A stretch of DNA of 64,000 nt from assembly GCF_030372065.1 (NCBI RefSeq), contig NZ_JAUDEA010000012.1, positions 1 to 64,000 on the forward strand. The letters are read 5' to 3'. The notes below the pieces were generated by a model. That model ran no database searches, was not told where the DNA came from, and was given only the letters and a program-made list of their open reading frames with translations. Positions 20,575 through 60,802 of this stretch are shown in pieces. This DNA is from Thermophilibacter provencensis (lineage in GTDB: Bacteria; Actinomycetota; Coriobacteriia; Coriobacteriales; Atopobiaceae). The position numbers and the translations under genes were made by a program. The number at the start of each line of letters is the position of its first letter. Position 1 is the stretch's first letter.

Positions 20575-20720
20575 TTGTTAATCCTTTCATCGCGGCCAAC
20601 ATAACTCGTTAGCAGTGATGATATTGGCTGATAGCAACCTTAAATGTAAAAACTTCCGAACGGCGGAATGTTTCGGTGGGCGCGGGGCGGCTTTCCCTGC
20701 GCGGTGCGGCCCCCAATGAG

Positions 20721-20821
20721 GGTATGTACACTGTTGCGGGTTTGATGTTCTTCTCGCCGCGCGCTGAACTGGGGTTTTATCGACGTTGAGAGTGCATCAA
20801 ACCTGAAACAGTGTACATACC
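20721..20821. repeat. Long inverted repeat, 27-bp arms
   Basis: Arms 20721-20747 and 20795-20821 match at 25 of 27 positions (GGTATGTACACTGTT at the outer end) around a 47-nt loop. It lies between the 3' end of the acyltransferase gene and the 5' region of the secreted-protein gene. I see no ORF in 20575-20859. Confidence 0.85.
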
Positions 20822-51860: not shown

Positions 51861-51885
51861 GGGCGGGGCGGCTTCGGGGGCGCCG

Positions 51886-52370
51886 AGAAGAGCTGTCGAG
51901 TGCGCGCGGACGGGGCTGATCGCGCTTTGGTTTTGCGCCGAGTGCGCGCGGACGGGCGCGAGGGTGCTTTGGAATTGGCTCTAGTGCGCGAAGGAGCATC
52001 TGAGATGCTGGGGTTTCTCGCCGAGTGCACGTAAGCGGCGCCGACGGCGCTTAGGTTTTGCGCCGAGTGCGAGCGGGCGGGGCCGCCAAGCCGGGCCGCA
52101 TCGCGCACTCGAGGGATTTCCGAAGCGGCGTTGGCCCCAAACGCGCGCACTCGGCGGGATTCTGCAGCGGGGACGGGGAGGCACGACGCACTCGGCGGGA
52201 TTCTGCAGCGGGAACGGGATGCCGCCGGACACTCGACGGGATTCTGCAGCGGAACCCGAGCGCAACAACCCACTCGGCGCGTTTCCGCAGCGGCGCCACC
52301 GCCGCACACTCGGCGCGTTTCCGCAGCGGCGCCACCGCCGCCCGCGCGCACTCGGCGCAATTCCACGGCA
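51886..52370. repeat. Family 2 giant palindrome (left copy), 41-42 bp units
   Basis: Five forward units (AGTGCG-type cores at 51899, 51941, 51983, 52024, 52066) face seven reverse units (CGCACT-type cores at 52104, 52146, 52187, 52228, 52269, 52305, 52347). Spacing is 41 or 42 bp apart from one step of 36. The five inner pairs share one centre, 52087. Reverse units read roughly GCGCACTCGGCG, then an ATTC-like block, then GCAGCGG. Long open frames crossing the array are by-products of the periodicity. 52371-52551 holds no other feature. Confidence 0.92.
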
Positions 52371-52551
52371 CCTTCACTCGCTTCCGCTCGCGCCAGCATT
52401 ATCACGCGCATTATCAATCGCCAAAGCACCGCAGCTCGTCCGACCAAAAGCGCCCCGGCGTGAAAGCTAGCGGTAAGCTATATGGAAGGTTCGTGTCGAA
52501 GTATTTTAGATTCTCGCAGGTAGACCACATGAAGTCGCGTACCGCAACCCT

Positions 52552-53673
52552 ATGGACGTGCTGCTCTCACATACCACGGCACTTGCCGTCATCCGCGCGC
52601 AGGAGACCCGCCGGACCCTCGAGGGGCAACGGCGCTGCGACGCCTGTGTGCCCGGCGCCGCCCCCAGCGCATCTGACCTTGAGGCCCTTCTTGCCAGTGC
52701 GCCGTTTCTCTCCAGACTTGACGCGCCGATCGAGGTCCTCGTTGCCGCCACAAAGGGGCGGAGCCGCATACCGGGCATAGCGTCGCACGTCATGAGCCAC
52801 CCGCTGCTACACAACGCCGCCTTTGAGGTGGCTCCGGGAATACGCAGCGTTGGTCCCGAACTTCTCGCCGTCCTCATGGCCCCCAAGCTCACGGAGCTTG
52901 AGCTCATCGTCCTTCTGTCCGAGCTGCTTGGGACCTACGCCATCGCGCCGCAGCTAGAGGACGGCATGATTACGCGCCGCTCCCCTATCACAACGCCGGA
53001 GCGGATCGCGGAGTTTCTCGACGCGCTGGGAACGTATCGCGGGGTGGCGCAGGTCAGGCGCGCGCTCGGGAAGGCATGCGTGCGGTCGGCCTCTCCGCGC
53101 GAGACCAAGCTCTCGCTGCGACTGGGGCTCAAGCCGCAGCAAGGCGGTCAGAACTTTGATGTACTCTCGATGAACGAGCCGCTCGAGGTGGTCCGCATTG
53201 GCAACAAGATGCGAAAGGGAGTCCGCAAGCCGGACATCCTGCTTCGCGCGCCAGGCGGCGCAACGAGAGGCAGGAGGCCCCTGCTTGGCGCGGCGGTTGA
53301 GTATGACGGCAGGGACCACGGCACCGAGGAGGGTCACGCGCGCGACGTCGGGCGCCACAACGAGGTGACGGCCATCGGGCTTGTTGAGTACGTCGTGACC
53401 AAGAAGCAGTACGGGGACCTGGAGTACATGGACGGGCTTGCCGACCTGATTCGTCGCGATCTTGGCCTGCCGCGCCAGAGGCTCACCCGAGCGGAGGCGG
53501 CGCGGCGAAAGCGGCTGCGCCAAGAACTGTATGAGGAGCTTGAGCACATTGACGGCGAGCATTGGGACGGCTTGGAGCGCCAGCGCGCACGCTTGGCCGG
53601 CGAGAAGAACGAGGGCCCTGGGTTCAACGACGACTGGGATGTTGTGCCTGTTGAGGCGTATGGGCTTGACTAG
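52552..53673 (+). CDS. PD-(D/E)XK nuclease-like protein (DUF559/Vsr-type core), array-flanked paralogue
   Basis: 373 residues. A helical N-terminal region (DVLLSHTTALAVIRAQE) of unknown role precedes a C-terminal nuclease-like core: KPDILLR, then AAVEYDGRDH, then a helix with RHNEVTAIGLVEYVVTKKQY. This is the D...E-x-D...H pattern of DUF559/Vsr-type endonucleases. It shares the first motif, the middle block SPRETK-LSLRLGL and the nuclease core with the protein at 59777-60802, so the two are paralogues. Family 2 palindromes flank both ends. No good ribosome binding site precedes ATG 52552; ATG 52529 has AGGT but is out of frame, so a small frameshift at the start is possible. The target is unknown. 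Confidence 0.65.
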   Translation: MDVLLSHTTALAVIRAQETRRTLEGQRRCDACVPGAAPSASDLEALLASAPFLSRLDAPIEVLVAATKGRSRIPGIASHVMSHPLLHNAAFEVAPGIRSVGPELLAVLMAPKLTELELIVLLSELLGTYAIAPQLEDGMITRRSPITTPERIAEFLDALGTYRGVAQVRRALGKACVRSASPRETKLSLRLGLKPQQGGQNFDVLSMNEPLEVVRIGNKMRKGVRKPDILLRAPGGATRGRRPLLGAAVEYDGRDHGTEEGHARDVGRHNEVTAIGLVEYVVTKKQYGDLEYMDGLADLIRRDLGLPRQRLTRAEAARRKRLRQELYEELEHIDGEHWDGLERQRARLAGEKNEGPGFNDDWDVVPVEAYGLD

Positions 53674-53702
53674 GCGGTTGTCGTGGTTGGAGCGGGGCTG
53701 GG

Positions 53703-54120
53703 GCGCTGCGGAATTGCGCCGAGTGCGCGCGGTTGGGCAGTTGGGCGCTTTGAAATTGGCTCGAATGCGCGGAAGGGGGTGACGGGGTGCTGAGAAAAGC
53801 CGTCGAGCGCGCGGGCGAGGCTGGCAGCGCTTTGGTTTTGCGCCGAGTGCGCATAGTTGGACGGAGAAGCGCTTTGGTTTTGCGCCGAGTGCGAGCGGGC
53901 GGGGGACGCTGATTCGGGCCGCATCGCGCACTCGAGGGATTTCCGAAGCGGCGTTGGCCCCAAACGCGCGCACTCGGCGGGATTCTGCAGCGGGGACGGG
54001 GAGGCGCGACGCACTCGGCGGGATTCTGCAGCGCCGCCGGGGTTCCGCCGCGCACTCGGCGCGTTTCCGCAGCGGCACCACCGCCGCCCGCGCGCACTCG
54101 GCAGGATTCTGAAGCAGCGA
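53703..54120. repeat. Family 2 giant palindrome (right copy), 42-bp units
   Basis: Five forward cores (53722, 53764, 53806, 53846, 53888) face five reverse cores (53927, 53969, 54010, 54051, 54093). All five pairs share the centre 53910. The inner part 53918-54032 is nearly identical to 52094-52212 of the left copy, showing a recent duplication around the nuclease gene. I see no other feature in 53674-54195. Confidence 0.92.
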
Positions 54121-59776: not shown

Positions 59777-60802
59777 TCAAAGAATCACTCCCTCGTAGGG
59801 ATGGGCCAAGGCATCCAGGGCCGCCTCTTTGTCCTGCGGACCAAACAGTCGCTCACGAAGGTCCCGACGCTTGTCCAACATAATCTTCGTGGCGGGAGTC
59901 CTATGCGGATCGACCCTCCTTGCCAGTTCGCTCATGAATATATTGAACTGCTCATCACTTTTAAGTATGTCGTTTGTCAGTCTTCGCTGCATATAACCGG
60001 CAGCCTCGAACGCCCTACGGCGACGCTCGTCACGCTTCATGGCCTCAGGAGTGGCATGAAACTCGTCGCTCTCGTACTCGACGATGAGCTTTGCGCCTGG
60101 CCAGTAGAAATCCGGCCTGAGCACCCCTTGGCCAACAATCTTCTGAAGCTCTTCCGGAAGCTCAATGGTCGCATTCATTTCGAACCCAGAAAGCGAAAGT
60201 CCTCCGCGAGCGCGGGTGAGCTTCATAAATATTGCCGCATCCGTCTCGCGAGGCGAATTGGAGTTTGACGAAGCAAGGCTCAGGGCGTCCATCGCCCGAC
60301 GCGCTCCGCGCGTCTTTGTTGCCAAGGCGGCCCTGATGTAGCTAGCAAACTCGTCGTACGCCACCAATGGCTTGACGTCTTTATCGAACCCCTCCGCTGG
60401 ATCCGGGTCAAACCCATAGGAACCCATCATCTCGCACGCAAGCTGCGCAAGCTCGATCTCGTCAAGTTGGGTCGCAAGCTGGACCAATACGGCTGGCATA
60501 CGACAGACAAAGACATCGCTGTCAACGCCATAGAGGTACTTATCTCCGAGTGGCCCACCAAACACCCCGCTTTTTACCTGGCCGCAGTGGTAGCGCTTGG
60601 CCGCCGAGGGCACCACGACCCGAATGGGAGTGTCAAGCCCGCAGAGCGCCGCCGCGCGCCGAGCCGTCTGCCCAACCGTCTCGGGGCGACGCCCGATCAC
60701 CGCCCCCGCAAAATCGTCGTCCGCCGCAGCGAGCGATCCCTGCCGCGCGCTCCGCCAAAACTCAAGCGCCGACTCAAACCCAACCACCAGCCTTCGTCCC
60801 AT
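59777..60802 (-). CDS. PD-(D/E)XK nuclease-like protein (DUF559/Vsr-type core), second paralogue
   Basis: 341 residues. The N-terminus VVGFESALEFWRSARQG corresponds to the start of the paralogue at 52552. The middle block NSPRETDAAIFMKLTRARGG aligns with SPRETK-LSLRLGL there. The nuclease-like core is LRPDFYWPG, LIVEYESDEFH and RRRRAFEAAGYMQRRLT, matching the D...E-x-D/S...H and following basic helix of DUF559/Vsr-type endonucleases. GGGAGGA precedes ATG 60802. The gene is monocistronic and its 3' end abuts a family 1 palindrome. No toxin, methylase or reverse transcriptase lies nearby. Confidence 0.68.
   Translation of the reverse strand: MGRRLVVGFESALEFWRSARQGSLAAADDDFAGAVIGRRPETVGQTARRAAALCGLDTPIRVVVPSAAKRYHCGQVKSGVFGGPLGDKYLYGVDSDVFVCRMPAVLVQLATQLDEIELAQLACEMMGSYGFDPDPAEGFDKDVKPLVAYDEFASYIRAALATKTRGARRAMDALSLASSNSNSPRETDAAIFMKLTRARGGLSLSGFEMNATIELPEELQKIVGQGVLRPDFYWPGAKLIVEYESDEFHATPEAMKRDERRRRAFEAAGYMQRRLTNDILKSDEQFNIFMSELARRVDPHRTPATKIMLDKRRDLRERLFGPQDKEAALDALAHPYEGVIL

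Follow-up and report, generated by a model that had tools for sequence, protein, structure and literature searches.

Putative Vsr/DUF559-like nuclease genes between matching repeat arrays in Coriobacteriales: a possible REP-like partnership

Introduction

Why does a putative nuclease gene lie between two large palindromic repeat arrays, and do the arrays have anything to do with the enzyme? The question is raised by a locus of Thermophilibacter provencensis (NCBI RefSeq assembly GCF_030372065.1, contig NZ_JAUDEA010000012.1), whose positions 1 to 64,000 make up the stretch analysed here, hereafter the window. At 52552-53673, the open reading frame (ORF) of a putative PD-(D/E)XK-like protein is enclosed by two arrays, A and B, of one repeated unit. 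We find that arrays go with this nuclease family and are not incidental to it, because enclosure by matching repeats lies far above controls; the link is real for about half of the family. Judging from sequence comparisons, we lean modestly towards seeing the window as one member of a family of systems, each a nuclease with its cognate arrays, that would work in the manner of repetitive extragenic palindromes (REP) and their REP-associated tyrosine transposases (RAYT).

Two mirror-built arrays around one gene

The arrays and the gene are laid out as follows (position weight matrix, PWM):

51880..52073, forward strand: array A left arm, five forward units (51880, 51922, 51964, 52005, 52047); PWM scan, unit model
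52074..52101, no strand: array A centre, gap of 28 bp, axis 52087.5; symmetry analysis
52102..52371, reverse strand: array A right arm, seven reverse units (52102, 52144, 52185, 52226, 52267, 52303, 52345); PWM scan, unit model
52552..53673, forward strand: nuclease-family gene, 373 aa, enclosed by arrays A and B; coding score, family alignment
53703..53895, forward strand: array B left arm, five forward units (53703, 53745, 53787, 53827, 53869); PWM scan, unit model
53896..53924, no strand: array B centre, gap of 29 bp, axis 53910; symmetry analysis
53925..54117, reverse strand: array B right arm, five reverse units (53925, 53967, 54008, 54049, 54091); PWM scan, unit model

Array A as a whole covers 51880-52371 (5 + 7 units) and array B 53703-54117 (5 + 5 units), each being a run of forward units followed by a run of reverse units. 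The unit is 27 nt long, with a consensus close to GCGCTKNGGAATYSCGCCGAGTGCGCG, and we refer to it by its core, CGAGTGCG. The gene starts 181 bp from the end of array A and stops 30 bp short of array B. The original prediction had described two such mirror-built clusters around the gene, centred at 52087 and 53910, and the computed axes bear this out. The phasing, put at 41-42 bp, is equally well founded: across the six arrays of this genome, 35 of 37 unit intervals measure 40-42 bp (42 bp in 22, 41 bp in eight, 40 bp in five, and one each of 36 and 32 bp; one unit of array C30b, interpolated only, is omitted from the count). Three of the arrays have a central gap of 18 bp and the other three one of 27-29 bp, a difference of about one helical turn. 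The near-identity of the two clusters, first estimated at about 115 bp, turned out to be larger: 53902-54079, which takes in some of the centre and the greater part of the right arm of array B, matches 52079-52256 of array A in direct orientation over 178 nt at 89% identity, including an identical run of 91 nt. Because a portion of array B looks duplicated, in direct orientation, from array A, recombination between the two could amplify or excise the gene.

All 22 PWM matches of at least 15 bits in the window fall inside arrays A and B and none outside, and order-1 Markov surrogates of the arrays gave a mean of 0.018 matches, with at most 1 per run in 500 runs. The matrix was built from the window's own units, so that its matches there are not independent; the independent evidence comes from unit copies on other contigs, described below. 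That arrays A and B are real and go beyond chance is confirmed.

A putative Vsr/DUF559-like nuclease

The ORF scores strongly as coding, and the nearest homologues that we found are 62-63% identical to its product. The window protein itself has no match in Pfam, NCBIfam or PADLOC. Among 13 relatives, the restriction endonuclease (REase) profile REase_MTES_1575 weakly matches three (best E 0.016) and DUF559 weakly matches one, below its cut-off (E 0.0021). The sole PDB profile match, at a non-significant E of 1.5, is 3r3p, a 'Mobile intron protein', which we take to be the Vsr-like homing endonuclease I-Bth0305I. The family pattern, E / PD / E-or-D / H / D..R, is kept, and an alignment of 13 sequences has 17 invariant columns, including E184, P227, D228, H256, D265 and R268. 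It is because of this pattern and the weak family matches that we call the protein a nuclease, possibly of the PD-(D/E)XK type and Vsr/DUF559-like. The PD-(D/E)XK label given to the gene at the outset is weakly supported by the family pattern and by relatives, and finds no family match in the window protein. The C-terminal position of the conserved pattern and the weak family matches are what the protein shares with DUF559 and MTES_1575 REases; MTES_1575 is described as a REase of the Vsr fold that is joined to HEPN and winged helix-turn-helix domains (PMC3710099). No Y1 transposase was matched in any of the 13 members, and a search of viral contigs returned three pattern matches, with no relative among them.

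Matching repeats flank about half of the nuclease family

To what extent do other members of the family live between arrays? Thirteen array-bearing genomes were searched with the family alignment, which gave 6-17 matches per genome, fragments included. The census takes all of these except for 16 of the lowest-scoring, mostly fragmentary places. From the resulting 120 rows, four repeat rows (L413, L331, L003, L006) and a contig-edge artefact (L403) were removed, leaving 115 paralogues in which enclosure was defined as at least three clustered CGAGTGCG-type sites on each side. Eight of the 115 are enclosed, one each in eight of the 13 genomes and in two genera (the window's own genome, G000, then G002, G008, G010, G016, G018, G020 and G176). 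The same holds for 0 of 335 other genes of at least 300 nt, taken from loci chosen because most hold arrays; the size limit leaves out both short genes of locus L214, to which we return below.

A motif-blind test reached further. We aligned the 600 bp upstream of each gene with the 600 bp downstream, directly or inverted, and counted a score of at least 30 as a pass; loci where either flank was shorter than 250 bp were dropped, which reduced the 115 paralogues to 109. The test is passed by 53 of the 109, comprising seven of the eight CGAGTGCG-enclosed nucleases and 46 of the 101 others. Among size-matched control genes the count is 2 of 178 (Fisher 1.6e-24), and among swapped flanks, in which the upstream and downstream sides come from different nucleases of the same genome, it is 4 of 862 (1.3e-51). 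These p-values overstate independence because the nucleases are related; clustering them at 50% identity leaves 36 clusters, 18 of which have a median score of at least 30. The better match is direct in 23 of the 53 passing loci and inverted in 30. In genomes outside the set from which the hypothesis was formed, 16 of 18 best homologues pass as well (L237 and L252, repeats of L319 and L313, were dropped, and the flanks of L241 and L251 were too short). The gene downstream of the nuclease, in nine copies including the window's, scores 10.8-16.8. Read by their flanks, some nucleases are enclosed by palindromic arrays of other kinds, one with unit GGTGCCGGATTTCCGCCATATGCGT and a further twelve loci; at some loci the units are small palindromes. 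Where flanks were read in this way, the repeats mostly form convergent arrays built from a short unit.

These counts overturned a first reading in which the arrays seemed unlinked to the nuclease. That reading rested on the best homologue in each genome, where a CGAGTGCG cluster was found at 0 of 29 loci, and on the window's downstream gene, eight orthologues of which have no array. An enclosed family gene in G176, which belongs to another genus, and one in G002 prompted the full census. The original prediction had looked for arrays to accompany nuclease homologues more often than chance and held that homologues usually lacking them would speak against a link. The first expectation is borne out by both tests. 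As to the second, homologues do usually lack the CGAGTGCG unit (0 of 29 best homologues have it, and 107 of 115 paralogues are not enclosed by it), and this ceases to be true of arrays in general once other units are counted.

A second family paralogue lies in the window itself, 6 kb downstream on the reverse strand (59777-60787), and has no flanking repeats (score 11.3). Its orthologue in G013 scores 14.3, and several relatives are also without repeats, which indicates that arrays are absent around the genes of some clades of the family.

Close nuclease relatives share units

In a tree of the 109 nucleases, near relatives share a unit, clades differ in theirs and some clades are repeat-free. 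All 27 pairs at 70% identity or more are syntenic, and 26 of them have a repeat 8-mer in common. At 50-70% identity the figure is 14 of 27 for syntenic pairs, which implies that the unit can change at one locus as the nuclease diverges; the background at less than 35% identity is 159/1051 and 11/119. As an example of a shared locus, L325, L333 and L334 have neighbouring sequence in common.

A second unit, GTGTACATACCCTC, is dispersed in its own right. It is the flanking repeat of the L347, L350 and L361 nucleases and stands on both sides of one at G006:C16:20477. Its copies number 45 in G006, 61 in G010, 90 in G016, 55 in G018, 13 in G000, two in G013 and one in G002, with none in the six other genomes, and the reversed sequence, used as a control, has 0 copies in all 13. 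Among the matches listed, they are mostly inverted pairs about 84-128 bp apart. One orphan copy, among 13 exact copies in the genome, lies in the window at 20718-20731.

The motif CGAGAAGAAC / GTTCTTCTCG, a generic element, recurs next to arrays whose unit types are unrelated and also throughout the genome; it is present at 14 places in the window (e.g. 53601 and 20747) and at many of the other loci examined. The 8-mer CTTCTCGC belongs to the repeat set of more than a quarter of the 53 repeat-flanked nucleases.

Orphan arrays of the CGAGTGCG unit

In G000 (2.23 Mb) the unit model has 52 matches at E<=1, and 48 of these lie inside six arrays at five places. Beside arrays A and B, these are orphan arrays, found with the unit model:

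C1:100395-100671, orphan array
C12:109859-110270, orphan array
C30:39767-40002, orphan array
C30:149318-149544, orphan array

Arrays at different places have units and spacing in common and not their spacer sequence (31% identity, A-B pairs excluded). Different species retain arrays at orthologous places. Conservation is usually higher in the sites than in the spacers (e.g. 35/35 versus 50/65), a comparison biased in favour of sites since these were picked by motif; in pair g8 the spacers are equally conserved. Further species of the genus have CGAGTGCG arrays with different spacing rules, and two more genera of the family have such arrays too, one represented by the metagenome-assembled genome (MAG) Olsenella sp. 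RGIG8828 and the other by G176/G180, whose arrays obey the symmetric rule + 19 + 32 + 27 - 32 - 19 -. A scan of the named genomes of the genus, covering 80 of 102 stretches, found three or more unit matches only in loci of one Olsenella MAG, and single matches elsewhere in that scan are taken as chance. One orphan array of G000 (L233:6601-9700, on C12) is bordered on each side by one of a pair of paralogues with DUF5648 and Beta-lactamase2-type domains.

A directional DNA site

Are the arrays read as DNA or as RNA? An alignment of 21 copies of a related element shows no covariation (RNAalifold covariance term +0.43; of 24 pairs, 1 has changes in both partners). In G000, mirror pairs are no more alike than others (spacers 29% versus 31%, units 64% versus 65%). 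Unit similarity in G176/G180 is 0.65 for mirror units within an array, 0.73 for the same position in different arrays and 0.51 for non-mirror units within an array; mirror units closer than non-mirror ones are expected if position sets the unit type. Rfam has no match to the window arrays, nor to arrays at nine further loci. The absence of base-pair covariation favours DNA sites over RNA: the conserved part of the CGAGTGCG arrays is a directional DNA site, repeated in several genomes at approximately helical intervals, with no sign of base-paired RNA. The suggestion that the arrays might be long structured RNAs is therefore not sustained, there being neither covariation nor mirror complementarity.

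Two known elements were considered and set aside. A resemblance to the HrcA/CIRCE (controlling inverted repeat of chaperone expression) half-site GAGTGC was dropped because the spacing is different. In CRISPR (clustered regularly interspaced short palindromic repeats) arrays the direct repeats are nearly identical and each spacer, about 26-72 bp long, is unique; here the units are diverged, the spacers are 15 nt and the orientation flips at the centre.

A proposed pairing of nuclease and arrays

How could an enzyme come to live between its own repeats? In REP/RAYT systems, repeats stand on both sides of the gene of a DNA-cleaving enzyme, the same repeats are dispersed, and repeat and enzyme diversify together (PMC2817692, PMC3686654). 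The system described here resembles these systems (which include REP doublets forming hairpins, REPIN, bacterial interspersed mosaic elements, BIME, and the TnpA-REP transposases of the Y1, or HUH, type) in that a putative DNA-cleaving enzyme gene has repeats on both sides, in the window, in the seven other CGAGTGCG-enclosed cases and, by flank match, in 53 of 109. It also resembles them in that the same repeats are dispersed as inverted pairs or clusters, here for the two units CGAGTGCG and GTGTACATACCCTC. However, the enzyme appears to be Vsr/DUF559-like and not Y1 (HUH), the 27-nt window unit lacks a GTAG-type head and is a directional site in convergent arrays instead of a tagged hairpin, and several enzyme-repeat pairs occur per genome. 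With another enzyme and no tagged hairpin, the system falls outside REP/RAYT, but it is built like such a system and may work like one.

We envision that the nuclease binds its own unit as DNA, probably forming a cooperative nucleoprotein on both arms, and would nick or cut at the bound array. Through break repair or recombination, arrays would then be copied into further intergenic positions and also be maintained on either side of the nuclease gene, while the gene itself would stay at its locus and be inherited vertically. A bolder version, which we hold more tentatively and a little short of even confidence, is that this constitutes a second, independently built REP-like system. Each genome would then contain several Vsr-like nucleases in parallel, each paired with its own repeat, recognising a lineage-specific unit, seeding intergenic arrays and being itself locked between two of them, with enzyme and repeat changing together at a fixed locus.

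A number of observations weigh against a nuclease with cognate arrays. More than half of the nucleases (56 of 109) fail the flank test and some clades never pass it. G013 shares orphan arrays with G000, yet none of its examined nucleases is enclosed. Enclosure is not confined to nucleases: at L214, a pair of short genes (279 and 270 nt) sits between two CGAGTGCG-type arrays. G000 has its 13 GTGTACATACCCTC copies and no nuclease in the 50%-identity cluster of that unit. A unit copy elsewhere was found for only 23 of 53 repeat-flanked nucleases, in a count that covers about 1-14% of each genome, and several of these are merely the generic GAGAAGAAC motif. Of the 21 pairs at 50-70% identity that are not syntenic, just 8 have a repeat 8-mer in common and, since the closest pairs are all syntenic, descent of a shared locus could explain much of the unit sharing. 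In G000 and G008 the spacing clearly follows the helix, and in the other array type it does so only in part. Structure prediction was too poor to be of help (predicted local distance difference test, pLDDT, 36.1 with a single sequence and 39.6 with four sequences). Lastly, the clade of the window nuclease otherwise carries other units, of the TTTCAGGAC/GGGGTACGGCA type, its 63% paralogue has TTTCAGGACAT/GGGGTACGGCA repeats, and CGAGTGCG arrays stand mostly with another clade. In G000 the relative of that mostly-CGAGTGCG clade, at C5:23851, carries a different repeat again. This leaves capture of the window gene by CGAGTGCG arrays, or a shift in its specificity.

As a side observation, the L214 pair (L214:6885-8056, on G018:C26) consists of a DUF4160 gene and its neighbour and is possibly another cargo or a toxin-antitoxin-like pair.

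Other explanations

Could the arrays belong to the host instead? They might be BIME-like nucleoprotein sites of a host DNA-binding protein, serving chromosome organisation or transcription boundaries, with the nuclease as a passenger. Orphan arrays do outnumber enclosed nucleases, the CGAGTGCG core is kept in three genera despite changing spacing rules, and the non-nuclease pair at L214 is enclosed too. The arrays are also mostly intergenic and nearer to the 3' ends of genes than to their 5' ends (median distances of 50 bp, n=51, and 159 bp, n=37, respectively). Placement between convergent genes, however, is not enriched (14/44 versus 21/88, p=0.40, a count that omits 11 clusters with a gene called over them, at a contig end, or sparse), and a passenger would not give enclosure in 8 of 115 against 0 of 335 or matching flanks in 53 of 109 against 4 of 862. 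We regard this explanation as unlikely. Among genes next to array loci, the most widely spread groups are made up of loci that are orthologous and of paralogous families, ABC transporters for instance, a naming that rests on a later Pfam match to one neighbour-gene group.

Just as improbable, to our mind, is a homing-type element in which the nuclease gene is mobile cargo, with the arrays serving as its target and as homology arms and with orphan arrays as sites that are empty or have been vacated. The protein possibly has the same fold as Vsr/EDxHD homing endonucleases such as I-Bth0305I, and like them it is encoded by a free-standing nuclease gene amid repeats. The direct array copies around the window gene, the better direct match in 23 of 53 loci, the position of the window nuclease within arrays typical of another clade and the match to 3r3p, taken as I-Bth0305I and not significant at its E of 1.5, would all suit homing. 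But the window has a complete array on each side and not the halves of a split one, nearest relatives stay at the same locus (27 of 27 pairs at 70% identity or more are syntenic), and two filled/empty comparisons of orphan arrays showed no target duplication.

More doubtful again is autoregulation, with the arrays as operators for the nuclease's own N-terminal region and orphan arrays as a regulon or decoys. Array A does stand 181 bp upstream of the gene, and unit and nuclease change together; against this, arrays stand downstream too and mostly near gene 3' ends, and the 13 members gave no match to a regulator domain, AbiEi-type or other. By far the least probable are long structured RNAs partnering the nuclease, for, even if convergent units could form one long hairpin, the covariation and Rfam results given above speak against them.

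Novelty and implications

In the open literature consulted, we found no link of DUF559 or MTES_1575 REases to repeat arrays, and the open PMC literature, taken by title and start of abstract and with subscription papers mostly outside its scope, has nothing on DUF559/Vsr-like genes together with repeat arrays. Going by that literature, a DUF559/Vsr-like nuclease with cognate arrays would be a new kind of system.

If the nuclease recognises its flanking array, several enzyme-recognition pairs stand side by side in each genome of this group, the specificity of a poorly understood nuclease family would be readable from genomes and directly testable, and REP-like nuclease/repeat pairs would form a natural series of matched nuclease specificities. 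The REP/RAYT lifestyle, a vertically inherited enzyme with dispersed repeats, would then have arisen more than once from unrelated enzymes, which bears on the question of whether repeats of this sort are selfish or of use to the host. Palindromes that lie dispersed and are now regarded as noise could also be assigned to an owner gene.

RAYT-like genes and DUF559 genes elsewhere

Y1 genes resembling RAYT (L275-L285, L059) occur at separate loci in nine of the ten genomes searched, with 2-5 per genome and mostly about 235-275 aa. That a RAYT acts on the arrays in trans was considered and rejected: 12 Y1 loci and L059 have no CGAGTGCG cluster, and G007 carries Y1 genes despite having no CGAGTGCG match. 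Of the 12 Y1 genes that could be located (L275-L285, L059), four score at least 30 in the flank test, which suggests that true RAYT/REP systems may coexist here.

DUF559 matches are also found in 55 of 198 genomes of the wider Actinomycetota. Among 30 DUF559 loci outside the family, 23 were usable and five of these score at least 30, against 0 of 9 outer flanks. These five repeat-flanked loci (L417, L426, L436, L437 and L443) are suggestive of an arrangement that reaches beyond this family to DUF559 genes of other Actinomycetota.

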